DNA of 64,000 nucleotides, taken from NCBI RefSeq assembly GCF_000378045.1, contig NZ_KB899099.1, positions 62,001-126,000 on the forward strand, given 5' to 3'. The translations under genes were made by a program, and so were the position numbers. The notes under the pieces were generated by a model, which saw nothing but the letters and a program-made list of their open reading frames with translations, was not told where the DNA came from and searched no databases. Shown here one piece after another: positions 30,449 to 59,506 of the stretch; the stretch's first letter is position 1; every line of letters begins with the position of its first letter. This stretch comes from Marinobacterium rhizophilum DSM 18822. Lineage in GTDB: Bacteria; Pseudomonadota; Gammaproteobacteria; Pseudomonadales; Balneatricaceae.

Positions 30449-31483
30449 CTAGGGCAGGTTTTCCTTGAATACCAGCTCCATACTGAGCTTTGAAACCCCC
30501 GTCAGCGGGGCTTTTCCAGCACGCACATTTTCAAAGATCTTGAGCGTATTCTGCACGATGCTATCCGGACTTTGAGTGATCACCAGGTCCATGGTGTCTT
30601 CGAGCAGAAAGGTGCGGGTATCCGTTGTCAGACCGTGACCGATGAAAACGATGTCCTTGTCACGCCCTTTTTCGCGAAGCGCCCGCGCGATGCCATCGGA
30701 CGCGCCACCAACATTATAGATCCCGATCAGGTCGGGATATTCGGCCAGCAGCTTCAAGGTATGGTGATAATTTTCACTACGATCATCGTGCCCTTCCCGG
30801 GCCGCGATAACACTAAACTTCAGGGATTCCTCGCCCATCAGGCTCAGGAAGCCCATCTCCCGCTCTTCGTGCGCACGGTAGGTGCGGCTGGCCGAGATCA
30901 GCGCTATGCGCCCACTGTCGTGTTTCGACAACCGGCCCAGCAGATAGGCAGCCGTACGCCCGACCGCCCGGTTATCGAGCCCGACATAGGCCGTGCGGCT
31001 GACACTGGATATGTCGGACACGATAGTGACGATGTGTTTGCCTCGGGCAGCCAGCGTACCAATCGTTTCACGCACCAGGGGATGGTCGATCGCCATAAAT
31101 GCTATACCGTCCGCCTTTTCGCCGTGACGCTTCAGTGCATCGGACAGATGCTTTGGATTAAAGCTGTCGATAAAGAAGCAGCGCGGACGGACGTTATGAT
31201 CTGACGATTTTTCGGTGGTGTCCTTAATGGTCTCACCCAGCAGGCGCAGATAAGGGTTTGTTCCCGCTGGAAGCAGGAATACGACCTTGAGGGGCCGCGG
31301 ACGCAACGTGCGCAGTATCTCATCTTCGGGCAGGTAGCCCAGTTCTGCCGCCGCCTGCAGCACCCGTTTGGCGGTCAGTTCACGCACGCCAGGGCGTTTG
31401 TTTAATACCCGGTCCACCGTGGCCGGCGAAATACCGGCCCGTTCGGCTATGTCCCTGATTATAGGTCCGTTTGTCTTTGGCAT
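30449..31483 (-). CDS. LacI-family transcriptional regulator
   Basis: A 344-residue LacI/GalR protein. The DNA-binding domain is at residues 5-60 (IIRDIAERAGISPATVDRVLNKRPGV). The periplasmic-binding-like effector domain follows, with YVGLDNRAVGRTAAYLLGR, IYNVGGASDGIARAL and FIGHGL. The ATVDRVLN helix is that of the sugar/acid-sugar responsive subgroup. The start at 31483 (MPKTNG) is preferred; the reading to 31501 begins with TTG. It is divergent from the TRAP operon, so it should control it and respond to the imported compound or a derivative. Confidence 0.92.
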   Translation of the reverse strand: MPKTNGPIIRDIAERAGISPATVDRVLNKRPGVRELTAKRVLQAAAELGYLPEDEILRTLRPRPLKVVFLLPAGTNPYLRLLGETIKDTTEKSSDHNVRPRCFFIDSFNPKHLSDALKRHGEKADGIAFMAIDHPLVRETIGTLAARGKHIVTIVSDISSVSRTAYVGLDNRAVGRTAAYLLGRLSKHDSGRIALISASRTYRAHEEREMGFLSLMGEESLKFSVIAAREGHDDRSENYHHTLKLLAEYPDLIGIYNVGGASDGIARALREKGRDKDIVFIGHGLTTDTRTFLLEDTMDLVITQSPDSIVQNTLKIFENVRAGKAPLTGVSKLSMELVFKENLP

Positions 31484-31516
31484 GGTTTGAATTTCGCTCA
31501 ATAAACATCAAAAACC

Positions 31517-31532
31517 ATCATTTTATAATGAT
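31517..31532. promoter_or_regulatory. Candidate LacI-type operator
   Basis: ATCATTTTATAATGAT has 6-bp perfectly symmetric arms around TTAT. It lies in the 147-bp gap between the lacI-type start (31483) and the TRAP binding-protein start (31631), where a divergent operator is expected. A typical LacI-family site has a CG centre, which is lacking here, so this is only a candidate. Confidence 0.4.
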
Positions 31533-31630
31533 TGCCCGCTAGCATTACTCAACTTAGACTAACACCAGTCAAGCGTTATCTCCAAAGACACTGATCTCAA
31601 AATAATCATAAACCCTCATGGGAGATCATC

Positions 31631-32644
31631 ATGATCAGCACCGCCTTAAAACGTCGTACTTTTGCTGTCCTGCTCGGAGCCGCGGCTTGCGCCCTGGGTG
31701 GAATTTCCGCCTCGGCCCAAGCGGTAACGCTGAACTACGGCCACATGAACTCACCCTCCAGTATCGCAGGCCTCCAGGCAACCTGGCTGGCAGAGGAGGT
31801 TGCCAAGAACACCGGGGGCGAAGTGAATATCGAGGTCTACCCTTCGTCCCAGCTGGGCAAGATTCAGGAACTCGCAGAAGGCGTTTCAACCGGTTCCATC
31901 GCGCTTTCCCACAACACGGCCGGCGGAATAGGCTCTCTCTATGCTCCGTTCGCGGCGCTCGACACGCCCTACCTGTACGACAATGTCGACCACCTGATGA
32001 AAGTGGTCGATGTGGACTCTCCCGTGATGCAGGAACTGAATAAGGGCCTGATCGAAAACAGCGGGGTAAGGGTACTGTATGCGTTCTATTTCGGTACCAG
32101 GCAGTTGACCGCCGACCGGGCGATCAAGGAGCCGGCTGACTTGGCCGGTGTAAAAATCAGGGCGATCCCCTTTCCGATTTACCTCAGTGCGGTGGAAGGA
32201 CTCGGTGCCGTACCCGTACCGGTAGACTGGTCTGAGGTGCCTACAGCCCTGGCAACAGGTATCGTTTCTGGACAAGAAAACCCGGTCAATGTCGTGCTTG
32301 ATCACAAGATTTACGACATCCAGTCCCACCTCATGCTGACTGGTCATATCTCGGCCGCCGAAATGGTGGTGATCAATGAGGACATCTGGCAGTCCTTCTC
32401 GCCTGAAACAAAAGATGCTGTGACCAAGGCGGCACAAACCGTGCGTGAGCGCGCCACCCAGCAAGTGCTGAACCAGGAAGCCGAAGAGCTTCAGTCGCTG
32501 AAAGACGCCGGCATGACCGTTATCGGACCGCAGGATGGACTGCAAACAGGCGCCTTCCGCAGTCATGTTCAAGCCTTGGTCAAAGAGCGCTTCAGCGAAC
32601 AGTACGGTGATCTCTATTCCAAGATCGAGCAGGCCGCGCACTAA
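31631..32644 (+). CDS. TRAP transporter solute-binding protein (DctP family)
   Basis: A 337-residue periplasmic protein. The signal peptide is about residues 1-29 (RRTFAVLLGAAACALGGISASAQA). The DctP fold follows, with LNYGHMNSPSSIAGLQATWLAEEV, VNIEVYPSSQLGKIQELAEGV and the ligand-carboxylate arginine region KIRAIPFPIYL. GGGAGATC precedes the ATG. First gene of the operon; the substrate is probably an organic or sugar acid, since nearly all DctP proteins bind a carboxylate through a conserved arginine. A 218-bp gap to the next gene, longer than others in the operon, may let the binding protein be made in excess. Confidence 0.93.
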   Translation: MISTALKRRTFAVLLGAAACALGGISASAQAVTLNYGHMNSPSSIAGLQATWLAEEVAKNTGGEVNIEVYPSSQLGKIQELAEGVSTGSIALSHNTAGGIGSLYAPFAALDTPYLYDNVDHLMKVVDVDSPVMQELNKGLIENSGVRVLYAFYFGTRQLTADRAIKEPADLAGVKIRAIPFPIYLSAVEGLGAVPVPVDWSEVPTALATGIVSGQENPVNVVLDHKIYDIQSHLMLTGHISAAEMVVINEDIWQSFSPETKDAVTKAAQTVRERATQQVLNQEAEELQSLKDAGMTVIGPQDGLQTGAFRSHVQALVKERFSEQYGDLYSKIEQAAH

Positions 32645-32862
32645 GGCACTGCCAACACCCATCCGGCGGGGTGGCACCGGTCGAAATCAAGACGCAGCTT
32701 CAAGACACAGCCCAGCCCTGCCGGGGAACGACAACAACGCGCCCGGCTGCGCCGACATCCCAGGGAGTAGCCGGGACCTGTTCGCAGTCTCCCGGCCAGC
32801 AGAATGCGGGCGCCGTTTGCGGGCTTCGGATCCATGATCCTTGATCTATCGCGAGGAATAAC

Positions 32863-33348
32863 ATGCAACAGAAGCACGGACCCGTTCACGTCATGCTGGA
32901 GCGAATATGCTCCATGCTGAGCAGGATAGCCGAACTCCTGCTGGGGCTGATGTCACTGCTGATACTTGGACAGGTGGTGTGCCGCAACGCCTTTGACCTG
33001 GGCTTGCCCTGGGCGGATGAGCTGGCCCGATTTACCTGCATTGCGCTGGTGTTCCTGGCAATTCCGACACTGCTGCTGCGTAACCGCCATATTGCGGTCG
33101 ACATCGTCTACAACATGCTCGGTAGCCGATACAAAACAGGACTTCGCCGACTCAACTGCCTGCTCACGCTGTTCTTCTGCACGATCGTCCTTTACAGCTT
33201 TTACAAATTCCTTATTCGGGCGGGGAAATTTTCAACCCCGTCGCTGGAGATGTCCAACTGGGTCTTTTATTCGCCCGCACTGATTGGTATCGCCATGCTG
33301 GCGGTGGTGGCGCTTTACCTTCTGTTTGCGCCATCAAAAGAAAAGTAG
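32863..33348 (+). CDS. TRAP transporter small membrane subunit (DctQ family)
   Basis: A 161-residue protein with four membrane helices, the usual DctQ form: LLLGLMSLLILGQVVCRNAF, the conserved GLPWADELARFTCIALVFLAIPTLLL, RNRHIAVDIVYNML and the last helix near 135-155. GAGGAATAAC precedes the ATG. It pairs with the DctM gene 25 bp downstream. Confidence 0.93.
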   Translation: MQQKHGPVHVMLERICSMLSRIAELLLGLMSLLILGQVVCRNAFDLGLPWADELARFTCIALVFLAIPTLLLRNRHIAVDIVYNMLGSRYKTGLRRLNCLLTLFFCTIVLYSFYKFLIRAGKFSTPSLEMSNWVFYSPALIGIAMLAVVALYLLFAPSKEK

Positions 33349-33373
33349 CCCCACGCAAGAGACCATCTGAATC

Positions 33374-34654
33374 ATGATGAGCATTATCCTAGTTGTCCTG
33401 TTTCTGGGGACATTACTGATGCGATTGCCGGTGGCCCTCTGCCTGGGCCTGGCTTCTGCAGTCACCATACTCCTGTTCGACCTACCCATCACCGTTCTGG
33501 CGCAACGCATGGTCAACGCTCTGGACTCGTCGCCGCTGATGGCCGTGCCACTGTTCATTTTTGCAGCCAACCTGCTGAGTGCCGCCGGGGTTACCAACCA
33601 CCTTTTTGATCTCGTGCGCATGCTTGTCGGCTGGATCCGCGGGGGAACCGCACAGGTCAGCATTCTTGTCAGTCTGATTTTTTCCGGTATTTCGGGCGCA
33701 GCGCTGGCGGATATCGGCGCGCTGGGCGGTATTCAGATAAAGATGATGCGCGAGCAAGGCTACCGCGAAGACTTTGCCGCCGGTATTACCATGGCAGCCG
33801 CCACGATCGGCCCGATATTTCCGCCCAGTATTCCCATTATCATATTTGCCACCACAGCCAATGTGTCTGCGGTGAAGCTGCTGCTGGCAGGAATCATTCC
33901 CGCACTGCTCATCACCCTGCTGCTGATACTGCAGGTGGCCATTCTGGCCCACATCTACAAAATGCCTCGCGATAATATGGCATTCGACACGCGCGCCTTT
34001 GCCCGCAAGCTGGTGCTGTCCATCCCCGCCCTGTTTGCACCGATTCTGCTGATTGGCGGGCTCATGTCCGGCCTGTTTGGACCGACCGAGGTGGCCGGCG
34101 TCACAGTGGCTTACGCCATATTCATCGGCCTCTTCGTTTACCGCAAGCTCGACTGGTCGGGTATCACCAGAGCAGCACGCGAAACGGTCGATGCAACGGC
34201 CAGCGTGCTGTTCATCGTCGCGACGGCGGCACTTTTTGCCTGGGTGCTGACGATGGATCGCGTCCCGTTAAAAGCCAGCACCTTTTTGCTGGGACTGTCC
34301 GACGACCCCTTGATGCTGTTGCTGATCATCAACGGATTACTGCTGGTGGTGGGCATGGTACTGGAGTCCATCGCAGCCATCCTGATTATTGCTCCCATTA
34401 TCACACCGGCGCTGGTCGCCGCTGGCGTCGATCCCCTGCAGCTGGGCATCGTTTTCGTCCTCAACCTGATGATTGGCCTGTTGACCCCGCCCATGGGCAT
34501 GAGTCTCTACATGGTCAGCATCATTGCCGACATGCCATTGCATAAGGTTATTCGAGGCGTGGTGCCCTTCCTATTGCCCCTGTTGCTGTCACTTCTGGCA
34601 GTCACTTGTGTTCCGGCAATCTCAACCTGGTTACCCGGCCTAATAATGAAGTGA
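33374..34654 (+). CDS. TRAP transporter large membrane subunit (DctM family)
   Basis: A 426-residue polytopic protein with about 12 helices. Family signatures include ALDSSPLMAVPLFIFAANLL, SLIFSGISGAALADIGALGGIQIKMM and TMAAATIGPIFPPSIPIIIF. It forms the Na+-driven permease with DctQ. The end VLNLMIGLLTPPMGMSLYMV is also typical. Only 7 bp separate it from the VOC gene, so transport and catabolism are one transcript. Confidence 0.95.
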   Translation: MMSIILVVLFLGTLLMRLPVALCLGLASAVTILLFDLPITVLAQRMVNALDSSPLMAVPLFIFAANLLSAAGVTNHLFDLVRMLVGWIRGGTAQVSILVSLIFSGISGAALADIGALGGIQIKMMREQGYREDFAAGITMAAATIGPIFPPSIPIIIFATTANVSAVKLLLAGIIPALLITLLLILQVAILAHIYKMPRDNMAFDTRAFARKLVLSIPALFAPILLIGGLMSGLFGPTEVAGVTVAYAIFIGLFVYRKLDWSGITRAARETVDATASVLFIVATAALFAWVLTMDRVPLKASTFLLGLSDDPLMLLLIINGLLLVVGMVLESIAAILIIAPIITPALVAAGVDPLQLGIVFVLNLMIGLLTPPMGMSLYMVSIIADMPLHKVIRGVVPFLLPLLLSLLAVTCVPAISTWLPGLIMK

Positions 34655-34661
34655 GGACAAA

Positions 34662-35201
34662 ATGAGCAGATTTCTCGGAGAAATTCGCCAGCTCGGCTAT
34701 GTCGTGCAGGATATAGAGAAGGCCATGGACTACTGGTCAAAGACCATGGGTGTCGGCCCCTGGTTTTACAATCCGAAGGTGCCCATAGAAGACTACCACT
34801 ACGACGGCAAGCCCTATGAGGTGCACAACTCGGTCGCCCTGGCCAATTCTGGCTACGTGCAGGTGGAACTGATTCAGACGCGCAACGATGCGCCTTCCAT
34901 GTATCGCGACTTTTTGCAGGCAGGTCATACCGGTTTGCAGCATGTCGCCTACTGGACCGAACACTTCGATGAAGACCTGGAATGCATGCTCGCCCAGGGC
35001 TTTCGAGTCAAGATGAGCGGAATGGTCGGGGCTCAGGGCCGCTTTGTCTATTTCGATCGTGAAATGCACCCCGGCACGGTTATTGAGCTTTCCGAAGTCC
35101 TCGGCCCCAAGGGGCGGCTGTTCAAACAGATTCATGACGCCTCCATCAACTGGGATGCGAATGATCCGATCCGCCCTTTCCCTTCCTTGTCGGAGATCTG
35201 A
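34662..35201 (+). CDS. VOC-fold protein (glyoxalase/epimerase-like)
   Basis: A 179-residue protein of the vicinal-oxygen-chelate superfamily with two beta-alpha-beta-beta-beta modules. Module 1 begins IRQLGYVVQDIEKAMDYWSKTMGVGPW. Module 2 contains GHTGLQHVAYWTEHFDEDLECM and ends FDREMHPGTVIELSE. Candidate metal ligands are His of LQHVAY and Glu of VIELSE, with Glu in VELIQ of the first module. Overall it resembles methylmalonyl-CoA epimerase-like or lactoylglutathione lyase-like proteins, but no family gives a reaction. It is the first enzyme gene of the operon, between the permease and a RuBisCO-like protein, so it probably isomerises or cleaves the imported acid or the RLP product. Confidence 0.82.
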   Translation: MSRFLGEIRQLGYVVQDIEKAMDYWSKTMGVGPWFYNPKVPIEDYHYDGKPYEVHNSVALANSGYVQVELIQTRNDAPSMYRDFLQAGHTGLQHVAYWTEHFDEDLECMLAQGFRVKMSGMVGAQGRFVYFDREMHPGTVIELSEVLGPKGRLFKQIHDASINWDANDPIRPFPSLSEI

Positions 35202-35205
35202 AACC

Positions 35206-36477
35206 GTGCAATTGATAGAAGCCGAGTACCTGATCGAAACCCCGCTCGACCCGCAGAAAATTGCCCAGGTCATCGCCGGTGAGCAAAGCAGTGGTACCTT
35301 CGTGCGCCTGGCATCCGAAACGGATGAGCTGCGCGAACGCGCCGCGGCCCGCATTCTTGCAGTCGAGGAACTCGAGCCCGTTGCGAGCCCCAGTCTGCAC
35401 AGCGCCTTCCTCGAGGCCCGCGGTATTGGTGGCCCGTATCGCAGGGCAAGGGTGCGCATCGGCTTCCCTGCCGACAATATCGGCGTGAATCTGGCAACGC
35501 TGGCCGCAACCGTGTCTGGCAACCTCTATGACCTCGGGGAAGTGACAGGACTCAAGCTGCTGGATATTCAGCTGCCCGCGCCCTACCGTGCCCGCTATTC
35601 GCTGCCCCAGGCCGGCATTGCAGGAACCCGCGCCCGACTGAACCTGCAGGGGCGCCCCTTTTTCGGCACGATCATCAAGCCAAACATTGGCATGCAAGTG
35701 GATGAGATTGCCGACCTTGTCGAACTGCTTTGCGAATCCGGCGTGGATTTCATCAAGGATGACGAAGTCTGTGCCAACCCAGCCTGTGCTCCGCTGGACA
35801 AGCGCATACCCGCCGTCATGGAGCGGGTTCGCCGTTACCGCGACCGTACCGGTCGCGACGTGATGATGGCGTTCAATATTACCGATGAAACCGACGCCAT
35901 GCGCCGGCACGCCGACCTGATCGAACAGGAAAGCGGAGCCTGCGCGATGGTCAGCATGAACTGGGTCGGATTATCGGCCATGCAGACCTTGCGGGGATCA
36001 ACCCCACTGATTCTGCATGGGCACCGCAATGGCTATGGTGGCTGGGCCCGCCACCCGGCACTGGGTATCGCCTTTCCTGCCTACCAGGCACTTTATCGAC
36101 TGACTGGCCTGGATCACATGCACGTCCATGGCATGGGTGGAAAGTTTTCCGACAGCGATGCCGAGGTGACCGAAGCGGCACGCCTTTGTGCCCGGCCACT
36201 GTCACCGGATGGCCCGGCGAATGACTGTGTATTGCCGGTGTTTTCCTCCGGTCAGTGGGCCGGGACCCTGCCGGCCACTGTCAACGCGGTGGGCTCGTCG
36301 GATTTCATGTTTTTGGCCGGCGGCGGCATTCTGGCACACCCGGGCGGCCCGCAGGCCGGGGTCCGCAGCCTGCAGCAGGCCTGGGACGCCGTGGTTGCCG
36401 GCGAGGCTCTGGAAAAACATGCAACCCGCCATGCCGAACTCGCGGGCGCACTGTCATTCTATGAAGGCAAGGCCTAG
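35206..36477 (+). CDS. RuBisCO-like protein (OiaX/OiaT-type, acid-sugar pathway)
   Basis: A 423-residue form IV RuBisCO-like protein. Counting from GTG at 35206, the active-site set of true RuBisCO is largely kept: Lys158 (TIIKPN, equivalent to Lys175), carbamylation Lys184 with Asp186 and Glu187 (DFIKDDE), His273-Arg274, His306, loop-6 Lys313 (MGGKF), Ser348 and GGG at 372-374. Asn160 replaces RuBisCO Lys177. Together with the DUF1537 kinase next door this matches the RLPs of D-apiose catabolism, which decarboxylate or transcarboxylate 3-oxo-isoapionate 4-phosphate. The GTG start follows GGAG at 35192 and comes 4 bp after the VOC stop; an upstream reading to 35044 overlaps the VOC gene. The exact substrate is inferred, not shown. 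Confidence 0.85.
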   Translation: MQLIEAEYLIETPLDPQKIAQVIAGEQSSGTFVRLASETDELRERAAARILAVEELEPVASPSLHSAFLEARGIGGPYRRARVRIGFPADNIGVNLATLAATVSGNLYDLGEVTGLKLLDIQLPAPYRARYSLPQAGIAGTRARLNLQGRPFFGTIIKPNIGMQVDEIADLVELLCESGVDFIKDDEVCANPACAPLDKRIPAVMERVRRYRDRTGRDVMMAFNITDETDAMRRHADLIEQESGACAMVSMNWVGLSAMQTLRGSTPLILHGHRNGYGGWARHPALGIAFPAYQALYRLTGLDHMHVHGMGGKFSDSDAEVTEAARLCARPLSPDGPANDCVLPVFSSGQWAGTLPATVNAVGSSDFMFLAGGGILAHPGGPQAGVRSLQQAWDAVVAGEALEKHATRHAELAGALSFYEGKA

Positions 36478-36488
36478 GAATTTCACCA

Positions 36489-37781
36489 ATGCCAGACTTC
36501 GTTTTTTGTGCGGATGATTTTACCGGTGCATCCGACACTCTCGCCACGCTGACCCGCAACGGCCTGACGTCAAGACTCTACCTGCGCTCGGAAGACCTCG
36601 CTGCCAATCCCGACATCCAGACGCTCGATGCCGTCGGTATCGCGAGTTCGCTGCGATCGATGTCACAGCAAGCCGCGGTAGGCGAGATGAACCACATGGG
36701 AGCGAACCTGGCCCGAATTGGCGGCCGGTTTCATCACCTAAAAGTCTGTTCAACATTCGATAGCTCACCGGATATCGGCAATCTATGCGCGACAGCCGAT
36801 GCCTATTCGCAGCAAATCGAAGCAGACTGGACCGCGGTTATCGGCGGCCAGCCCTCCCTGGGGCGCTACTGCATATTCGGACATTTGTTTGCCGCGGACA
36901 GCAACGGCGTGATTCACCGTATCGACCGCCACCCAGTCATGCGGACCCATCCGATCACGCCAATGCAGGAGTCCGACCTGCGCCTGCATTTTCGGCAACA
37001 GGGCTGGTTAGAAACGGGGCTGGTCGACATTACCTCCTACAGACGCGGCGCCACGGAATTGGCGGCAGAACTCCGTTGTCGAATCGCAGACGGCGAAACC
37101 CGCACCCTGTTTGACGTGAGTGCGGACGAGGACCTCCAGGTCATAGGCCTGGCACTACAGACACTTAGCGATACCTGTCGCATCTTGAGTGTTGGATCCA
37201 GCAGCGTGGCGCAAGCATTGTCTCCGCTCTGCCCGGGGACAATCGACCCGCAAAGGCACGGGCCACACGACAGCCTTATAAAGGGCCCCGTTCTCGCATT
37301 TGCAGGCAGCCGGTCGACGCTAACCTCACAACAGGTTGAGGCCGCATTGGACTATGTAAAGCTAGAGCTTGAGCCTTCGGACCTGATCCACGCCCCAGAG
37401 CGTGACCGCATTATTCGACAAGGGGCTGACATTCTGGCAATGGGCAGCAACCTGCTGCTCTATCTCTCTGCCAATACCGGACACCTGTTAAGTGGTCGCG
37501 AGTTGGCACTGGCGACCGGCACGCTGCTGGATGCCATAGTGAGCCAATCTGCCATCGGTTTGCTGGCCATTGCTGGCGGCGACACATCGAGTATTGCCGT
37601 TCAGACAATGGACATTGACTGCCTGTCCTTTATCGGGGATTTCGAGCGCGGAGTCCCCCTGATTCGGGCCCACAGTTACATACCTAACTTGAACGAACTC
37701 CCCATGATCCTCAAAGGCGGACAGATGGGTACTGTCGACATATTCAATCGGATTGCGGCCCTCGCGGGCGAGCCCCGATAA
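36489..37781 (+). CDS. Four-carbon acid sugar kinase family protein (DUF1537)
   Basis: A 430-residue kinase of the OtnK/DtnK/OiaK family. N-terminal domain: FVFCADDFTGASDTLATL, the substrate-binding motif of the family. C-terminal nucleotide-binding domain: AFAGSRSTLTSQQV, AIAGGDTSSIAVQTM and LPMILKGGQMG. The family phosphorylates 3-oxo-tetronate, 3-oxo-isoapionate and related acid sugars at C4. Eleven bases separate it from the RLP gene, and the product of such a kinase is the RLP substrate in apionate catabolism, so the two probably act in sequence. It is the last gene of the operon and converges on recA. Confidence 0.9.
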   Translation: MPDFVFCADDFTGASDTLATLTRNGLTSRLYLRSEDLAANPDIQTLDAVGIASSLRSMSQQAAVGEMNHMGANLARIGGRFHHLKVCSTFDSSPDIGNLCATADAYSQQIEADWTAVIGGQPSLGRYCIFGHLFAADSNGVIHRIDRHPVMRTHPITPMQESDLRLHFRQQGWLETGLVDITSYRRGATELAAELRCRIADGETRTLFDVSADEDLQVIGLALQTLSDTCRILSVGSSSVAQALSPLCPGTIDPQRHGPHDSLIKGPVLAFAGSRSTLTSQQVEAALDYVKLELEPSDLIHAPERDRIIRQGADILAMGSNLLLYLSANTGHLLSGRELALATGTLLDAIVSQSAIGLLAIAGGDTSSIAVQTMDIDCLSFIGDFERGVPLIRAHSYIPNLNELPMILKGGQMGTVDIFNRIAALAGEPR

Positions 37782-50734: not shown

Positions 50735-52201
50735 TCAAGCCCGCCCGTACAGGTCCTCGAACCTTACGATATCGTCCTCTGCGAGATAGGAGCCGGACTG
50801 CACCTCGATCAGTTCAAGCGGAATCTTGCCGGGGTTTTCCAGCGAATGCACCACACCGACGGGAATGTAAACAGACTGGTTCTCGGTCAGCAATTGCTCG
50901 TTGTCACCACAGCGTACCTTTGCCGTACCGGAAACCACCACCCAATGCTCGGCGCGATGATGGTGCATCTGAATAGACAGTTTCTCGCCGGGCTTTACGG
51001 TAATACATTTGACCTGGTAACGCTGGCCATTGTCGATGGAATCGTACTTGCCCCAGGGACGGTAGACCTCACGGTGAAGTTTGTACTCACTTCGCCCTTC
51101 AAGCTTGAGTCGGTTCACCAGGTGTTTTACATCCTGCACTCGGTCTTTGGCGGCGACCAGCACAGCATCCTTCGTTTCGACAATTACCATGTCCTGCAAG
51201 CCCACCGTTGTCACCAGCTTGTGACTGGCATGGATAAGGCAGTCGCTGGTGTCATGCGTCATGACATCGCCGTGATTGACATTGCCCTGTTCATCCTTGG
51301 CATTCACCTCCCAGAGCGACGACCAGGAGCCGACATCGCTCCAGCCCGCATCCAGCGGCATGACTACAACGGTATCTTCTCCGCTGCACAGCGGCTCCAT
51401 CACCGCATAGTCGATAGACTCATCCGGGCAGGCGACAAAAGCCGCTTTATCCACGCGCACAAAGTCCATATCCTGGCGTGTGCCAGCCATCGCGCTGGAA
51501 CAGGCGACATGAATATCGGGCCGAAATTCGCGCAATGCATCGAGATAACAACTAGCGCGAAACAGGAACATGCCACTGTTCCAGTAATACTCGCCACTGG
51601 CGACGTATGTTTCAGCCGTCGACAAATCCGGTTTCTCGACAAAGCGATCGACCACGTACGATTGTAACGAAGCCGCGGAACTATCATGACCGCCATCGTT
51701 CGACGCTTGCAGCGCGAGACTCTCCAGTGGCATGCCACGGCGGATATAGCCGTAACCGGTTTCAGGGCCGGTGGCAACAATACCAAAAGTGACCAGCTTG
51801 CCCTGCTCTGCAAGTGGCGCTGCCGCCCGCACGGCCCGTTGAAACCCTTCTGTATCCTGAATTACATGGTCGGCAGCCAGCACCAGCAACAATGGGTCTT
51901 CCCCCTGTGCAAGCGCATCCATCGCCGCCAGAGCGATGGCAGGCGCAGTATTGCGTCCAACCGGCTCCAGCAGTATCGATGCGGTAATGCTCTGCGCACG
52001 TAACTGTTCGGCCACAATAAAACGATGCTCTTCATTGCAGATCAGAATCGGCGCGGCGTCACAGAGCCCATCTATCCGCGCCAGCGTGTCCTGCAGCATG
52101 GTCTGATCAGAGGCTAACGGCAGAAACTGTTTAGGATAAAGCGCACGAGAAAGGGGCCACAGGCGCGAACCTGATCCGCCAGCCATAATTACTGGTTTCA
52201 T
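50735..52201 (-). CDS. manC: Mannose-1-phosphate guanylyltransferase / mannose-6-phosphate isomerase
   Basis: A bifunctional type II enzyme of 488 residues. Nucleotidyltransferase: [27 protein letters not shown], the pyrophosphorylase signature; [10 protein letters not shown] and [11 protein letters not shown] are sugar-binding. The C-terminal cupin isomerase domain contains [19 protein letters not shown] and [10 protein letters not shown]. It makes GDP-mannose from mannose-6-phosphate, so the polymer probably contains mannose or a derivative. No gmd/fcl is present, so fucose is not predicted from this cluster. A palindromic tandem repeat lies ~220 bp upstream. Confidence 0.95.
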
Positions 52202-52420
52202 TGCATAAATCCTTAATGATTAATTAAATATCCCTGGATGTCCGAAGCCATAATCTTCACGATAAAAATAGAATCTGGCTCTGAGCTTAAAACCCCGGAC
52301 ATTGAACACAGGCCACTTCTATTTCTTGATAAACATTATGAACCCGCATCAAAATAACTTGACTACTCTGGGTATTGGCTCAATTATACAAGGAGCTGGT
52401 GTATCAAAAAATGACACTAC

Positions 52421-52442
52421 ACGTCAGCTGACGTCAGTTGAC
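52421..52442. promoter_or_regulatory. Palindromic tandem repeat upstream of manC
   Basis: ACGTCAGCTG followed by ACGTCAGTTG (10-bp tandem units) creates a perfect 14-bp palindrome ACGTCAGCTGACGT at 52421-52434 and an overlapping TGACGTCA. It lies in the 287-bp gap between the manC start and the end of the Alg13-like gene. It looks like a regulator binding site for manC. No known consensus is matched with confidence. Confidence 0.45.
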
Positions 52443-52488
52443 AATCACCATATCAAATGTAAATTTACACAAGATTAATTATGCACTA

Positions 52489-52962
52489 TCAACCAACAAA
52501 ATCAGCCACTGCTTTTATTAAGCCCTGTAAGTTTTCATTATTCGAAACATCAACAGGATTGTATTTTTCTGCCTGATCCATTGCATCACAAAATTCAGCA
52601 TAGTTACTGGCGCAAAACAAATTAGGCAGGCCGCTTAGTGAATCAACGGTATCCATTTGATGATTGTTTATATGCTCATTTAAAGATGACTGTCTGGGCA
52701 CAACAATAATCGCCTTATTCAGATCCAAGGCCCGTATTATGTTACCCATACCCGCATGGGAAACTATAATGTCAGCCTGATCGAAATGACCACTAAAATA
52801 AGGCTCGCTAATGTTTTTATGATAGCCGTCTTCGGGGGAGAATTTATTAGAGCTACCGACCTGAAAAACAATATCTTTGTATTGTTTCGCTTTCTGCCAT
52901 TCAATGAGGTATTCGACAAGTCGATCAAAAGGCAGTTGAGTCCCAACAGTACAAAATATCAT
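52489..52962 (-). CDS. Glycosyltransferase, Alg13/PssE-like subunit
   Basis: 157 residues, the C-terminal donor-binding half of a GT28 enzyme. It starts MIFCTVGTQLPFDRLVEYL, and ADIIVSHAGMGNIIRALDLNKAIIVVPR is the typical nucleotide-sugar site. Proteins of this kind work only with an Alg14-like membrane partner, encoded immediately upstream with no gap. In rhizobia the PssD-PssE pair transfers glucuronate to the lipid-linked glucose; with ugd and a WcaJ-like gene in this cluster the same step is likely here. Confidence 0.88.
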   Translation of the reverse strand: MIFCTVGTQLPFDRLVEYLIEWQKAKQYKDIVFQVGSSNKFSPEDGYHKNISEPYFSGHFDQADIIVSHAGMGNIIRALDLNKAIIVVPRQSSLNEHINNHQMDTVDSLSGLPNLFCASNYAEFCDAMDQAEKYNPVDVSNNENLQGLIKAVADFVG

Positions 52963-53451
52963 CTATATTACCTTCCCCACATAGGTTGCTCCATGCTTGC
53001 CATTAAGGTGTTCCCATTGAGTAAACACCTTATTCGCAGTGACACACGCAAGCCGACCCGAAAGCGACAGTTTTTTAGTATTCGCGATACTGTCGACCCA
53101 CAAAGTTTTACATCCCATTAGGCGAGCTATTACCAATGTAATAATACCAGGAGCAGCCCCGGTTGAAACAACATGGGTCGGCTTTAACTTTCTTACCAAC
53201 CACAAAGATTTAGGGACAAAAAGTAGAGTTGGAAGTAAGTTCTTTCTGTTAAAGTCTGGTATTTTATTCTTAGAATAAAAATCAAACCCAGCATTATCGG
53301 CACAGGACAAGTCAACTGTCGCCACTGAAACGAGATGCCCTTCAAAAGCGGGCAGAATACGCTTCATCTGAACCCAGTGCCCACCACCGGAACAAATAAC
53401 CAAAACATGCTTACTCACGGGTACATGATCGTTGCAGCTTGTCTTTTCCAT
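52963..53451 (-). CDS. Glycosyltransferase, Alg14/PssD-like subunit
   Basis: 162 residues. The Alg14 features are VLVICSGGGHWVQMKRILPAF, then THVVSTGAAPGIITLVIARLMGCKTLWVDSIAN. It anchors and completes the acceptor half of the glycosyltransferase with the Alg13-like protein. The ATG at 53451 has GGAGA at 8 bp and is preferred, although it lies 37 bp inside the end of the GT4 gene; a GTG at 53418 overlapping that gene's stop is the alternative. Confidence 0.88.
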   Translation of the reverse strand: MEKTSCNDHVPVSKHVLVICSGGGHWVQMKRILPAFEGHLVSVATVDLSCADNAGFDFYSKNKIPDFNRKNLLPTLLFVPKSLWLVRKLKPTHVVSTGAAPGIITLVIARLMGCKTLWVDSIANTKKLSLSGRLACVTANKVFTQWEHLNGKHGATYVGKVI

Positions 53452-54386
53452 CGCTCAGTTCTCCGTTGCATCAATGTTTTGGTACGCTCAGCCATGCCGT
53501 CCAGGTCTGATAAGACTTTTTGAATTGCTCCAGCTAAACTTTCGGGATCATCATTATCTATAAGCTGAGCAGCGTCAGAGTACAAATCCCTAAGTGTTGT
53601 AGTATTAGAAAGTATCAATGGCTTACAGGCACTTAAACCTTCATTTGCAACACTTAGCTGAACATTCTGCCTTGTCGTCATACCAAGAACCATCGTGGCA
53701 TTGAGCAATAAAGCGTCATACTCCGGTTTACTCAGATAATTGGTAAAAAATACGTTTTTCGGTATTTCAACATTATCCGAGTTAACGAATTTTTTTGAGT
53801 TACCGGTTATATAGAAATTAATATCGGATAACTTTGCCGCCTTTAGAACAGTTTCGATCGGCTCATCAATATCAAATGAGCAGGGAAAAATTATATACTT
53901 TTCATTTTGATCGTCTCGCTTGGATACAGAGTCCAAGTCATACTGAAAAGGGTAATCCTCAAGAACATGGACTATATTCTCGTTAATACCGAGCGCTTTT
54001 AACTCTTCACTCACTGCCTTGTTATGCGCCAGAACAACATCCATCTTATTAAGCAATGCACGAGCAAATGGAAATTTCATCCACTTATCACGTAGCATAC
54101 TATTATGTAAATCTGCAATAATCGCGCAATCTTTCTTAAAGACAAACTTGTATATAAAAGCTATATGCAGCAGCAAACTAGGTGGCAATTGTATCCACAG
54201 CTGATCTGGTCGTTCAGTGAACAGAATCGCAAACGTTTTTACAATTTTGACGATGTAGTCCAGTGGTTTACTGATTATAGAACTACCGAAAGACGTATGG
54301 ATATGCCTGAGGTCATATCCCCAATGTTCCTGCATGCAATCAGCCCTTCGCTGGTATTTGACCCATGCAACCATAATTTTTTTCAT
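53415..54386 (-). CDS. Glycosyltransferase (GT4-like)
   Basis: 323 residues with a GT-B layout. The N-terminal acceptor half includes WIQLPPSLLLHIAFIYKFVFKKDCAIIADLHNS. The C-terminal half contains YDALLLNATMVLGMTTRQNVQLSVANEGLSACKPLILSNT, where the GT4 EGLSAxKP motif binds the donor sugar. Donor and linkage unknown, but mannose from GDP-mannose is possible because ManC is present and no other mannosyltransferase is obvious. AT-rich codon use. The stop overlaps the Alg14-like gene. Confidence 0.85.
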   Translation of the reverse strand: MKKIMVAWVKYQRRADCMQEHWGYDLRHIHTSFGSSIISKPLDYIVKIVKTFAILFTERPDQLWIQLPPSLLLHIAFIYKFVFKKDCAIIADLHNSMLRDKWMKFPFARALLNKMDVVLAHNKAVSEELKALGINENIVHVLEDYPFQYDLDSVSKRDDQNEKYIIFPCSFDIDEPIETVLKAAKLSDINFYITGNSKKFVNSDNVEIPKNVFFTNYLSKPEYDALLLNATMVLGMTTRQNVQLSVANEGLSACKPLILSNTTTLRDLYSDAAQLIDNDDPESLAGAIQKVLSDLDGMAERTKTLMQRRTERWKRQAATIMYP

Positions 54387-54390
54387 AAAC

Positions 54391-54933
54391 TTATATTCCG
54401 TACCAGATGGGAAATTCGCTTGAGTAAGCTATGTTTGAATTTCTTTTTCCTACAGGCCTTGCTGGGTTACCGGCGTAAATCGTATAGGCATCCAGGCTTT
54501 TAGTCACAACACTACCTGGATAAACCACAGCACCTTCACCTATAATTACGCCAGGCATCACCAATGCATTAGGAAAAATCCAGGCATTATCTTTTATCAC
54601 AACGGTCTTTGAGACAGTTTTAGAGAATGGGTCATTAATATCGTGGCCCATTGTATATATTTTTACACAATGGGAAATGTTCACGTTATTACCAATAACT
54701 AATTTCCCGCGAGCATCCAGAAAGCACTGGTAATTAACTGTAGTCCGATTGCCAATTGTGAGATTTCCAGGACAGAAAAGTTTGACGCCGCGGTGAATGG
54801 TAGCTTTTTCACCTACGGAAATACCAAAGCAGCGAAGTAAAAACCTTCTTACGCAGAAAAATAAGCTCAAACTTAATATAGTATTAAAAAAGCTCACAAT
54901 AATTTTTTGAATATTCAGCTTGATAATTTTCAT
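54391..54933 (-). CDS. Hexapeptide-repeat acyltransferase (LbH family)
   Basis: 180 residues with a left-handed beta-helix of isoleucine-patch repeats: IHRGVKLFCPGNLTIGNRTTVNY, LVIGNNVNISHCVKIYT, VVIKDNAWIFPNALVMPGVIIGEGAVVYPGSVVTKSLD. The pattern and length match WbbJ/CysE-type O-acetyltransferases that decorate exopolysaccharide. Predicted to add acetyl groups to a repeating-unit sugar. It lies 4 bp from the glycosyltransferase gene and 4 bp from the lyase gene. Confidence 0.9.
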   Translation of the reverse strand: MKIIKLNIQKIIVSFFNTILSLSLFFCVRRFLLRCFGISVGEKATIHRGVKLFCPGNLTIGNRTTVNYQCFLDARGKLVIGNNVNISHCVKIYTMGHDINDPFSKTVSKTVVIKDNAWIFPNALVMPGVIIGEGAVVYPGSVVTKSLDAYTIYAGNPARPVGKRNSNIAYSSEFPIWYGI

Positions 54934-54937
54934 GCTT

Positions 54938-55735
54938 TTATTTGCCCAGGAGATGATCGCTTATGGTAATGCTACTAACCTGGATAAAAGTATCCTGCGC
55001 AGCTGCAAACTTTGGTTTATTACCCCCAAAAAATGAAGAGAAAAGAATACCATCTATTAACAATCCGTCATCATATCGGTATGTGACTTCGTGATTACTA
55101 TAAACTAATTCATGGTCAAGCCACACCTGCAGAATACCATTAGACTGGCCAACTGAATTCAATCTAACTTTCTGTGTTATATGATGCCACTGCCCTCTTT
55201 TGTAAGACCAACTATTCGCACCCAGAGCAGTTCCCCACACTTTACTCGTCGGGAGGTAGGCATAAACGGCGCCGGCACCCGCCGCTAGCCACAAAAATCT
55301 GGAACTGAAGCCGTCATACCCCGTTGGAATCCGTCCACCGGTATTCCCAGTTCCGCCGAAAAGACCGGGAAGCTTACCTCCGTTAACGAAGTCGAAGTCA
55401 TTGGCGAATCTCAAATCGTAATCCAGGTAAAGACAGTCGTAACTTTGTTCAAAATTGACCCTTACATTGATTCCGCCAACTGGTTTTTTTAGCTCCAGCA
55501 TCGATTTTGGATCATAGCTTCCCTTAGGATAACTAATTTTTATTGCCTTATTATTATTTTTACGCTCAACCACATCAATATTACTGCTGTCGGCTCTTAC
55601 TGTATCACTTATATAGTCAGTTATATCCAATGCAAACCGATCATCTTTTGTGTTACAGGGTTCTTGTGCTAATACTGTCGATACGGGTTGTAACGATACA
55701 ATAAAAGCGAGCCATCCAGACCTAAGATGTCGCAT
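54938..55735 (-). CDS. Secreted polysaccharide lyase (PL14-like)
   Basis: 265 residues. Signal peptide about 1-24 (LRSGWLAFIVSLQPVSTVLA). The rest resembles the PL14 beta-jelly-roll lyase domain: GGKLPGLFGGTGNTGGRIPTG, GFSSRFLWLAAGAGAVYAYLP, GQWHHITQKVRLN and GILQVWLDHELVYSN. PL14 enzymes cleave alginate or glucuronan-type uronate polymers. Located inside the cluster, it may trim or degrade the cell's own uronate-containing polymer. The start at 55735 follows the pyruvyltransferase stop; the reading to 55765 overlaps it. Confidence 0.78.
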   Translation of the reverse strand: MRHLRSGWLAFIVSLQPVSTVLAQEPCNTKDDRFALDITDYISDTVRADSSNIDVVERKNNNKAIKISYPKGSYDPKSMLELKKPVGGINVRVNFEQSYDCLYLDYDLRFANDFDFVNGGKLPGLFGGTGNTGGRIPTGYDGFSSRFLWLAAGAGAVYAYLPTSKVWGTALGANSWSYKRGQWHHITQKVRLNSVGQSNGILQVWLDHELVYSNHEVTYRYDDGLLIDGILFSSFFGGNKPKFAAAQDTFIQVSSITISDHLLGK

Positions 55736-55739
55736 GTAA

Positions 55740-56900
55740 CTATCTATTGCTCCGTATCCAGTCAAGCAAATCCTTTTCAGACCGTTGTGATAACACTTCT
55801 AAAGTCTCATATTCTTTCTTGAGGTTTTGTTCAAGAACTGTTCGCCTACTGGGGAATTCACTTATTTCCGACAAAATAGAGTCTGCTGATGGCTCACTCA
55901 CCAATCGAGTTCCAGTAGGTAGCATTTTATGTATTTCTTTTAGCTTTGGTTCAATTTCAATTGCTATTGTAGGCGTATTGAAAGCGGCGGCGAGCATCAC
56001 GCCATGAGCTCTGGCGCTCACAATTACTTTTGAACTTTGGCAAAGGTTATAGAAGAAAGTACTTGGCGATGTTCCATCAACTTCCCAAAAAACCCATTCG
56101 AATTCAGGCGCCCTGGCTACAAGATGCTCATCCCTGTCCTTATATAGGCAGATAAATCTAACCTTTTGTCCCTGGTTTCTTAGGGTGGTAGCTGCATCAA
56201 ACATTGCCGTAAGACATGCTTGACCCCTTTCGCTATGTGGCCAGTCACGAACAATGAAGGATACAAAACCGTCCTCATCGATTACGTTTTTGTTTTCTAG
56301 AGCAAGCTGTTCACTCTTGCTAATCCAAAGTTTTCTATTAAAGCTAGGATCAGTAAAAATGTTGGCCGATCTATTTGGAACGAAGTTTTTATACAAAGCG
56401 GCGCTGGTCGATTCACGAACCGAAATATAACTCAACGACGGCAGAATCTTTTTAGTTCTATCAAGATTTTTTCCTTCGCTTTCAAACGGCCCCAAACCTA
56501 TACAATAAGCTGCAACGTGTTGTGCAAAATAGAGGTTATCATAAGCGCCTCTCGCCTTCATCAGCAGGCGAGTCAGTGTATCAAGCAAGCCGGACTGTCG
56601 CTTTATAATAGTAACAACCTTGGATAGTACACTTTTGGGCTTGGAGACCGGTGGTAAGAAAGAAAAGAACTGTCCACCTCCTCCAAGTATAACGACATCT
56701 GCGGAGAAGGGCTTCTTGATATGGATGAAGTTTGCTTCTGGCAAAATGTATTTACCAAGTACTGGATCCTCAACACCAATATAGATGTCTTTGCTATCAA
56801 ATACCTTTCGCATCGACTTATAAGTAGAAACCATTAAAATGTCATCACCTATATTCCCAGGCCCGTAAGCACCACGGATATAACATTTTACTTTTTTCAT
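55740..56900 (-). CDS. Polysaccharide pyruvyltransferase family protein
   Basis: 386 residues. The N-terminus KCYIRGAYGPGNIGDDILMVSTY is the family signature (GNxGDDxL). VVILGGGGQFF and KVIVSARAHGVMLAAAFNTPTIAIEIEPK follow, the last being the conserved acceptor/donor region. It transfers pyruvate from PEP to form a ketal on a terminal sugar, adding a negative charge to the polymer. Overlaps the flippase gene by 4 bp. Confidence 0.9.
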   Translation of the reverse strand: MKKVKCYIRGAYGPGNIGDDILMVSTYKSMRKVFDSKDIYIGVEDPVLGKYILPEANFIHIKKPFSADVVILGGGGQFFSFLPPVSKPKSVLSKVVTIIKRQSGLLDTLTRLLMKARGAYDNLYFAQHVAAYCIGLGPFESEGKNLDRTKKILPSLSYISVRESTSAALYKNFVPNRSANIFTDPSFNRKLWISKSEQLALENKNVIDEDGFVSFIVRDWPHSERGQACLTAMFDAATTLRNQGQKVRFICLYKDRDEHLVARAPEFEWVFWEVDGTSPSTFFYNLCQSSKVIVSARAHGVMLAAAFNTPTIAIEIEPKLKEIHKMLPTGTRLVSEPSADSILSEISEFPSRRTVLEQNLKKEYETLEVLSQRSEKDLLDWIRSNR

Positions 56901-58306
56901 ATTAATTTCTTCTCTTTAAAAAACGGAAACATGACAACTAAAAAAAGAACAGAAAGAACGGAAAAATTCAACGCCATTGAATTTGAATAATTGGCAACAA
57001 TCATGCTAGACATGAAACAGGCTGTGATTAACAGTATCGATCTTGAAAACATGACAGAGAAAGAGACTAGGCTGTGCCAATAAAAAACTGGCAGGAACAA
57101 TACCAGGCTTGTTATATGGGCCAACAGAATTGACTTCGAAAGCGATACAGCCGAGAGCACAGGGGTTAACTGAAGAAACGTTAAGAATGAAACCAGCCAA
57201 AATGCATTACTTACTATACTAATCCATCCCTTTCCTTTTAACGCAATCACGCGTGCAATTCCACTCTTGAACGCACTTATATACAGTGCAGCTGAAATCA
57301 TCAAAGCACACTGCATATAGTCGTCCGGCGCAAAATCATCGAGCACATATTCGCCCCAAAATCGTAATGAAAGAACGATTGGAACGATAAAAACAAAGGC
57401 AGCAAGCATTGTGGGCAGATAATTAAGCGGGTTTCTCTCATATGATATATTTGTTTGAGAGAGCTTTGGCATAATGACTCCACCGAGCGAGATAATGACT
57501 TGGGTCAGTATCATTCCAAATTGCCACACCAATGCAAAAAGTGATGCCTGGGCCAGTCCATTGGGAGTCTCAGATAGTAGTTTTGTTGAATACCAGTAAG
57601 CAGGCGTAACAAACATACTTGTGACAAGCAACGGTATGAAAACTTTCCTGGTGACTTCTCCACCCTCTAGCTTTAATGATACGTAATTTAATGCTTTATT
57701 CTTTTTAATAAACATTAAGGCATGTATCAATGCAGTTGTAATTGAGTGTATTAACAACCCCTGGATAGCACCAAATATTCCATCTTTTGTAATCAGATAC
57801 ATAGACAGTGGGGTAAGGAGCACTACAGGTATAATGTTTGCCATTGCCAACAGTTTAAATGCTTGCTGTCCTTGAAGGACGCCTGCAATTACACCTATGG
57901 CAATGTTTAGCGGAACCAATGAAAGAAGAATGTAGATCTCTGCTTTATCAGCAGTACCGGCCGTCAGAAATTCAATTGACGCTTCAATATCATATAGCGT
58001 TGCTGCGCATACGCAAAACCAGATCAACAGAGCTAAAACCACAAGATTTAAGCATCCCGATACCGATTTATCGTCAAGAACGCCATTGCTGACCGATAGA
58101 ATCTTGTTAGCCGACACAGTAATGGATTGTGTCAATATTCCAGAAATAACTGAGACAAGAAAGATAAAGACAGAAAGAGCACCGTGCTCTTCTGAAGTTA
58201 AAACATAGGCACAAAAAAAGCTTACAAAAAAAATAAAAAACTTATTACAACTAGAAGCAATAAGATTCAACAGTGCGCTTTCCAAGAATGAATCTTTGAA
58301 TTTCAT
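56897..58306 (-). CDS. Wzx-like polysaccharide flippase
   Basis: 469 residues with about 14 membrane helices, the MOP/PST layout, beginning LLNLIASSCNKFFIFFVSFFCAYVLTSEEHGALSVFIFL. It would move the lipid-linked repeat unit across the inner membrane. AT-rich and poorly conserved, as expected for Wzx, so the call rests on topology and position between the Wzy and glycosyltransferase genes. It overlaps both neighbours by 4 bp. Confidence 0.85.
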   Translation of the reverse strand: MKFKDSFLESALLNLIASSCNKFFIFFVSFFCAYVLTSEEHGALSVFIFLVSVISGILTQSITVSANKILSVSNGVLDDKSVSGCLNLVVLALLIWFCVCAATLYDIEASIEFLTAGTADKAEIYILLSLVPLNIAIGVIAGVLQGQQAFKLLAMANIIPVVLLTPLSMYLITKDGIFGAIQGLLIHSITTALIHALMFIKKNKALNYVSLKLEGGEVTRKVFIPLLVTSMFVTPAYWYSTKLLSETPNGLAQASLFALVWQFGMILTQVIISLGGVIMPKLSQTNISYERNPLNYLPTMLAAFVFIVPIVLSLRFWGEYVLDDFAPDDYMQCALMISAALYISAFKSGIARVIALKGKGWISIVSNAFWLVSFLTFLQLTPVLSAVSLSKSILLAHITSLVLFLPVFYWHSLVSFSVMFSRSILLITACFMSSMIVANYSNSMALNFSVLSVLFLVVMFPFFKEKKLI

Positions 58307-59475: not shown

Positions 59476-59506
59476 GATGTTCCTAACAGCAGGGTTCTTT
59501 TAAAAA

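Follow-up and report, generated by a model that had tools for sequence, protein, structure and literature searches.

A compact operon at positions 30449–37781 of a 64,000-nucleotide stretch of DNA from Marinobacterium rhizophilum DSM 18822 (the window hereafter) recurs almost unchanged in many unrelated bacteria. Its genes specify a LacI-family regulator, a tripartite ATP-independent periplasmic (TRAP) importer, a vicinal oxygen chelate (VOC) protein, a RuBisCO-like protein (RLP) and a DUF1537-family acid-sugar kinase. The cassette is a real, conserved and probably complete pathway, a variant of the DUF1537–RLP pathways for acid sugars. We lean towards the view, at somewhat better than even chances, that the cassette, with its linked LacI gene, suffices for the catabolism of a single carboxylic acid, with a VOC isomerase followed by the kinase and the RLP. 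Literature searches yielded no publication on the VOC–RLP–kinase cassette.

Seven open reading frames (ORFs) occupy the region, and all seven proteins exceed the Pfam gathering cut-offs for their named families, which confirms the gene set described in an original prediction made from the DNA alone. The LacI-family gene (30449–31501, minus strand; PF00356, 54.9 bits; PF13407, Peripla_BP_4, 115.5 bits) is divergent from plus-strand genes for the TRAP solute-binding protein DctP (31631–32644; PF03480, 206.9 bits), the small permease DctQ (32863–33348; PF04290, 93.4 bits), the large permease DctM (33374–34654; PF06808, 369.3 bits), the VOC protein (34662–35201; PF13669, Glyoxalase_4, 91.8 bits), the RLP (35206–36477; PF00016, 223.4 bits; RuBisCO_large and RuBisCO_large_N) and the kinase (36489–37781; PF07005, SBD_N, 159 bits; PF17042, NBD_C, 71.7 bits). 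By our reading of the sequence, the RLP gene probably begins with the GTG at 35206, four bases past the VOC stop codon. The earlier description of the operon as gap-free applies from DctQ through the kinase, where the intergenic gaps are 25, 7, 4 and 11 bp, but not to DctP and DctQ, which are separated by 218 bp. Also as predicted, ORFs and Pfam matches reveal no gene for a dehydrogenase, an oxidoisomerase or a separate decarboxylase in the operon, and no homologue of the oxidoisomerase ApnO was detected in the organism's own genome at E ≤ 1e-40.

To describe conservation we used the 80 nearest loci, which are the best 80 of at least 553 RLP relatives among 593 stretches from a species-genome collection; the scan query was an alignment of three RLP sequences, and weaker relatives were left out. 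The RLPs of these loci are 56–74% identical to that of the window. All 80 loci carry the kinase, 73 have a LacI homologue, and 76 have the VOC protein (62–82% identity). The VOC gene precedes the RLP gene in 76 of the 78 loci that include upstream sequence, with both genes on the same strand in every one of the 76. The four loci in which it was not seen comprise two contigs that start at or within the RLP gene (L078 and L086) and two metagenome-assembled genomes (L087 and L088). The prevailing order is a LacI gene on the opposite strand, then transporter, VOC, RLP and kinase, and because it recurs in most of the 80 loci this order is beyond chance. Departures from it include a fused permease on the opposite side of LacI (L065, L082, L085, L090 and L091) and a short-chain dehydrogenase/reductase (SDR) gene between LacI and DctP (L060, L061 and L073). 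Related SDRs (56–61%) lie near L065, L085, L140 and L145, and we treat these genes as putative optional entry enzymes. Three plasmid-borne relatives (L108, L109 and L115; RLP identity 59–64%) carry the full cassette.

According to codon-scored gene calling, a procedure that missed genes in L081 that homology searching picked up, any further clustered gene family besides transporters is confined to 11 or fewer of the 80 loci. Queries for ApnO, TIM-like LerI, DerI, GarR-like and Gfo/Idh proteins found no blastp match among the called genes of the 80 loci and no tblastn match at 1e-5 in their DNA. The importer, by comparison, is variable: 19 loci have DctP-Q-M like that of the window, 48 have a second TRAP type (DctP and/or DctM, mostly fused DctQM), nine have an ABC system of the polar-amino-acid type, and four have none visible. 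The importer changes around a constant VOC–RLP–kinase core, a pattern that suggests a carboxylate compound and a single pathway served by the three core proteins. An importer of the carboxylate type, another part of the original prediction, is thus supported. In DctP, Arg157 is invariant in a 35-row alignment and aligns with the Arg of the ‘GTR’ stretch of SiaP. The importer is not the YiaMNO system for 2,3-diketo-L-gulonate, for which the YiaN model gives 251.7 bits against a cut-off of 800.

The intergenic region between LacI and the transporter contains an operator-like direct repeat, CATCA-AAAAC-CATCA (31506–31520, plus strand). Of 71 LacI–transporter intergenic regions, 54 have the sequence ATCAAAAACCATCA with no more than two mismatches, compared with a mean of 0.1 and a maximum of 1 in 20 shuffled sets, and so do 13 of 15 Bradyrhizobium loci. 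The exact 15-mer is present in 10 of the 12 genomes searched, our organism's included, once each and always at the cassette. As for the remaining two, one genome (G566) has a single mismatch in its cassette site, and a Thalassospira genome (G567) has no match with one mismatch or fewer at its cassette. Ten additional one-mismatch sites lie elsewhere among the 12 genomes. The LacI regulon may therefore be the cassette alone, which would argue for a complete pathway. The original prediction had offered an incomplete pathway as one option; this is unsupported, since conservation extends to the cassette as a whole, which also has its own operator-like repeat. The repeat lies on the plus strand in every row listed, and a direct repeat is unusual for a LacI-family regulator, as the operators of this family are normally palindromes. 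A palindromic candidate, ATCATTTTATAATGAT, was rejected because similar palindromes occur in L012 and L013 but not across the set, whereas the direct repeat does. A sigma-70-like promoter, TAAACA-16-TATAAT (31502–31529, plus strand), overlaps the repeat but is a consensus match only; the region has three such sites against 3.2 in shuffled sequence, which is the frequency expected by chance.

The best NCBIfam model for the RLP is OiaX (NF042437), with 401 bits against an equivalog cut-off of 700, and the protein is thus not an OiaX equivalog. Nor does it fall in the methionine-salvage (MtnW) branch, a placement that the original prediction had named as contrary to its claim: the RLP scores 125.5 bits with TIGR03332 (cut-off 513.6) and 142.7 bits with NF007095 (cut-off 409). 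A carboxylating RuBisCO is likewise rejected, given 218.7 bits for form III RuBisCO (cut-off 497) and an Asn at the K177 position in all 46 members of the window's clade. That clade, with support of 97/96 in a tree of 68 RLPs, has a VOC gene adjoining in 44 of its 46 rows. On the other side of the tree are RLPs encoded beside ApnO, SDR or other genes, together with an OiaX group whose members L151 (genome G403, 786 bits) and L152 (genome G333, 780 bits) exceed the OiaX cut-off. The cassette RLPs form a clade of their own beside the ApnO-associated RLPs, and the deep order of the tree is unsure because the program warned of long branches.

The active-site residues noted in the original prediction were recovered in the alignment, with RuBisCO numbering transferred by way of motifs (S379 was excluded because its row is misaligned with the reference). 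Counterparts of N123, K175, K201, D203, E204, H294, R295, H327 and K334 are kept in all 46 clade members, and that of E60 in 45 (one gap). Seven ApnO-associated RLPs likewise retain E60 (one gap), N123 and H327. In contrast, three rows of the OiaX group (L112, L151 and L152) have D, G and Q at these positions. According to PMC6302742, the D-apiose RLP of Agrobacterium (A. radiobacter K84) decarboxylates 3-oxo-isoapionate-4-phosphate, and that of Xanthobacter (X. autotrophicus, OiaT) transcarboxylates/hydrolyses it. The residues of the cassette RLP would favor a transcarboxylase/hydrolase over a decarboxylase of the OiaX kind, and elimination leaves the ApnO-associated sister RLPs as candidates for the OiaT reaction. 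Of 248 genomes of one family, 19 contain relatives of one sister RLP (L141) at E ≤ 1e-130, and a single genus (g208) has this RLP at 87–100% in nine genomes; scans at the level of phylum, order and genus in this work cover samples rather than complete sets. Among known structures, PDB 3nwr (‘A rubisco-like protein’), presumably from Burkholderia fungorum, matches the window RLP with 588 bits over nearly its full length, the next match scoring 205, and is thus a clade member or close kin. A literature search turned up no paper on 3nwr as an RLP, and we know of no function for it.

The surroundings of the OiaX genes differ as well. Beside two of the three OiaX loci (L151 and L152) lie a TIM-like gene and a homologue of DerI, as expected for an erythrulose-phosphate product, and DerI of L152 scores 254.7 bits, above its cut-off of 240. 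Neither gene is present in L112, in the cassette loci or in the other RLP loci examined. ApnO is absent from the stretch that holds L151.

PF07005 and PF17042, both above their gathering cut-offs, place the kinase in the DUF1537 family. Its best NCBIfam model is OiaK (NF042436), at 216 bits against an equivalog cut-off of 700, and it is accordingly not assigned as an OiaK equivalog; with the 3-oxo-tetronate kinase model (NF043035) it scores 165 bits (cut-off 350). Cassette kinases of L019 and L073 reach 309 and 310 bits for OiaK. A rooted tree unites the 24 sister kinases in one clade (0.98). The kinship to the lower isoapionate-type steps that had been claimed for this operon therefore holds insofar as OiaX and OiaK are the best NCBIfam models, although neither protein reaches the equivalog cut-off.

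The VOC protein is specific to the cassette within a phylum sample of 398 genomes. A 42-sequence alignment found matches in 25 of these genomes: all eight places above 300 bits, the window included, lie in a cassette; 11 places at 205–238 bits have contexts without an RLP; and of eight weaker places (90–133 bits) the three examined have none either. All 42 sequences share Q10, E69, H94 and E142, which coincide with the positions at which VOC proteins bind their metal. These residues are candidate metal ligands, and the protein is probably a metal enzyme, with Gln where this VOC branch usually has its first His. An Fe(II) extradiol-type dioxygenase, which uses two His and one carboxylate, was rejected because the candidate ligands include just one His (H94). 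The structure model (pLDDT 94) has the fold of methylmalonyl-CoA epimerase (top match 3gm5, E 2.1e-13) and shares with the epimerase/glyoxalase branch the pattern of His plus acid or amide ligands. It differs from the epimerase in scoring 28.2 bits with TIGR03081 (cut-off 115) and in belonging to an operon without CoA pathway genes. We propose that the VOC protein is a redox-neutral isomerase that stands in for ApnO.

The case for this substitution comes from Bradyrhizobium. In a sample of 242 genomes of a genus (g186) that is probably Bradyrhizobium, since RLP and kinase of its locus L226 are 100% identical to those of the Bradyrhizobium locus L073, the VOC gene (E ≤ 1e-85) is present in 15, four with the usual RLP and kinase and 11 with a pair of the sister type. 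These 11 genomes have the same LacI, type-2 TRAP and VOC genes, followed by an RLP of the ApnO-associated type and an OiaK-like kinase; in ten of them the RLP is 81–93% and the kinase 79–93% identical to those of the eleventh, L143. The 11 form one clade in each of the four gene trees (VOC, LacI, RLP and kinase). Their VOC and LacI proteins nest within the cassette family (the nearest VOC neighbors being weakly supported, 0.55), and their RLPs and kinases sit next to those of the ApnO- or SDR-linked loci L138, L140, L141 and L142. With the OiaK model, the kinase of L143 reaches 551 bits, compared with 470, 484 and 590 for three kinases from ApnO loci. Given an exchange of pairs behind the same LacI, TRAP and VOC genes, it is simplest to suppose that each pair probably accepts what the VOC protein makes, in which case this product would be a substrate of the OiaK type, either 3-oxo-isoapionate or a close homologue. 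One option in the original prediction was that the VOC protein replaces the known isomerizing step; the pair exchange is the evidence in its favor, and the VOC reaction itself we infer. ApnO was found in only three of 23 cassette genomes and not in the other 20, our organism's included (15 of the 23 are Bradyrhizobium), so the cassette needs no ApnO. The two routes can coexist, as one genome (G568) with a cassette locus (L028) has a second RLP, 51% identical to the window RLP and accompanied by ApnO-like and kinase genes (L134).

Every reaction of the pathway (those of the VOC protein, the kinase and the RLP, with their products) and the substrate are what we infer from the observed gene set, conservation, clade, residues, predicted fold and RLP–kinase replacement in one lineage. 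In the proposed scheme, the TRAP system, or elsewhere the ABC system, would import an acid already at the keto-acid oxidation level. By redox-neutral isomerization the VOC protein would turn it into a 3-oxo-isoapionate-type acid, with a 3-oxo and a 4-hydroxy group, the equivalent of the NAD-dependent ApnO step elsewhere. The kinase would then phosphorylate the 4-hydroxyl, and the RLP would split the phosphorylated 3-oxo acid, for which OiaT-like transcarboxylation and hydrolysis to 3-phosphoglycerate and a small acid are favored over OiaX-like decarboxylation. ApnO converts apionate and NAD+ to 3-oxo-isoapionate; since the cassette has no oxidoreductase, its substrate and the 3-oxo acid should be isomers. 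An aldehyde isomer could be converted to the ketone by a 1,2-proton shift, which is known glyoxalase I chemistry and close to the enolization of the epimerase, and for 3-oxo-isoapionate this isomer would be apiuronate (OHC-CHOH-C(OH)(CH2OH)-COOH). An alpha-ketol shift of 2-oxo-apionate might serve instead. As a tentative and rather improbable specific form of the scheme, the VOC protein might be an aldose–ketose isomerase for a branched uronic acid, converting apiuronate to 3-oxo-isoapionate or L-aceric acid, a component of rhamnogalacturonan II, to the next higher homologue; RuBisCO-like transcarboxylation and hydrolysis would then yield 3-phosphoglycerate and glycolate (or lactate).

Other readings share parts of this evidence. 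The RLP could be an OiaX-like decarboxylase that yields a tetrulose phosphate, and OiaX is indeed its best curated match at 401 bits. The score under the cut-off, the different residues of the three OiaX-group rows at E60, N123 and H327, and the lack of LerI and DerI matches in the 80 loci make this doubtful. The cassette resembles the D-apiose/D-apionate OiaK–OiaX branch in having a DUF1537 kinase adjoining an RLP, with these models matching best, but it departs from it in both scores and in lacking ApnO, Gfo/Idh, LerI and DerI matches. Likeness to the OiaT branch is drawn through its presumed kin, the ApnO-associated sister RLPs, which share the E60, N123 and H327 residues and whose RLP–kinase pair once replaced the cassette pair; here the differences are the separate clade of the cassette RLP, its Asn at the K177 position and a VOC protein in place of ApnO. 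A four-carbon variant also seems possible, although we give it little weight. A tetruronate, 2-oxo-tetronate or 3-oxo-tetronate would be imported, the VOC protein would isomerize or epimerize it at C2, the kinase would form 3-oxo-tetronate 4-phosphate, and the RLP, in the role otherwise played by OtnC, a class II aldolase, would decarboxylate this to dihydroxyacetone phosphate (DHAP). In 3-oxo-tetronate, a carboxylate and a ketone flank the C2-H, much as in methylmalonyl-CoA, whose epimerases are the top fold matches of the VOC protein, and the kinase has its 165 bits for 3-oxo-tetronate kinase. Even so, this kinase and those of L019 and L073 score higher for OiaK, and it was an OiaK-like pair that once took the place of the cassette pair. 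Less probable again is that the imported acid is itself 3-oxo (3-oxo-isoapionate or near kin), with the VOC protein as an accessory for repair, lactone opening or mutarotation. The two loci without VOC, L087 and L088, would suit such a role, which fits poorly with a VOC protein that is nearly universal in the cassette and specific to it in our sample. Beta-keto acids are also unstable outside cells.

A structural clue to an imported acid of this kind, PDB 4oan, does not directly prove the substrate. The protein is a paralogous TRAP protein (450 bits to the type-2 DctP of L055), and its density has reportedly been modelled as 2-acetolactate, a dideoxy analogue of 3-oxo-isoapionate. The gene identical to it (100%) lies outside RLP cassettes, in L135, beside a fused DctQM and, as judged by eye, an AMP-dependent-ligase-like protein, which counts against import of a 3-oxo acid. 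In the family searched, 108 out of 248 genomes have relatives of this gene (E ≤ 1e-120), which represent a separate, common TRAP system.

Several observations weigh against VOC isomerization followed by an OiaT-like split. The pair exchange in Bradyrhizobium is a single evolutionary event and not eleven, and replacement of the pair could follow a change of substrate. The assignment of sister RLPs to the OiaT reaction comes from elimination and the family membership of genomes. The cassette kinases form no clade of their own in a quick rooted tree, and the sister kinases are also under the 700-bit OiaK cut-off. E43 of the Streptomyces coelicolor epimerase, presumably catalytic, has no visible conserved counterpart in the 42 VOC sequences, and the VOC chemistry may therefore differ from that of the epimerase. 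No VOC gene is near the RLP gene in L087 and L088, and the survey, as the best 80 of at least 553, leaves more distant relatives uncounted. Because the OiaX-labelled locus L112 also has neither LerI nor DerI in its 17 kb, the absence of both from the cassette is weak evidence.

These results define a coherent, widespread RLP clade together with its constant partners, a clade that includes or adjoins a solved structure (3nwr). They narrow its role to the OiaK/RLP metabolic step, fed by a VOC protein instead of an NAD-dependent oxidoisomerase. Should the VOC protein prove to be a sugar-acid isomerase, this would to our knowledge be a new reaction for the VOC superfamily, and if branched uronates are the substrates, the cassette would constitute a redox-neutral RuBisCO-superfamily route for them. 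We know of no bacterial pathway for such branched acid sugars, and in that case the cassette may offer the first. With few genes and one operator, the pathway is directly testable.

The distribution of the cassette makes acquisition by horizontal transfer likely. Among the best 80 of at least 553 relatives, the closest RLPs (71–74%) come from Thalassospira, an alphaproteobacterium, and none of 11 other sampled genomes of the window's own family has a match. Across the order, 10 of 293 genomes, our organism's included, have an RLP or RuBisCO match of any kind (E ≤ 1e-20). Single genomes show probable decay, with one internal TAG in the VOC gene of L225 (G958) and one internal TGA in the RLP gene of L252 (G1231).

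More distant RLP loci have other partners. L139 (6259–14705) and L144 (4018–12540) hold RLP–kinase pairs without ApnO or VOC, beside GH127 and GH42 genes and with a major facilitator superfamily (MFS) transporter and an Asp/Glu-racemase-like protein (in L144 by eye); perhaps they represent another entry route into the same RLP–kinase pair. The GH127 family includes an aceric-acid hydrolase, according to PMC5698469, and its presence beside related pairs in L139 and L144 is no more than suggestive. L138, L140 and L145 combine RLP genes with SDRs and a type-2-like TRAP protein instead of VOC and ApnO, and a kinase is also seen in L138 and L140. At the haloarchaeal locus L113, on a plasmid of Natronosalvus rutilus, an RLP (47%) and a DUF1537 kinase are accompanied by an SDR, an Asp/Glu-racemase-like protein and a VOC protein of another kind; one neighbor of 258 aa, without a Pfam match, shares, by eye, a GSHGG-SS motif with a 282-aa protein in L142.

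Elsewhere in the window, positions 52000–60800 form a low-GC island (0.40–0.41 in 52001–60000, compared with mostly 0.57–0.62 elsewhere). Its genes encode glycosyltransferases, a polysaccharide pyruvyl transferase, a polysaccharide-lyase-14-like protein and a UDP-glucose/GDP-mannose dehydrogenase, with a sugar transferase just beyond, and the island is a putative surface polysaccharide cluster.

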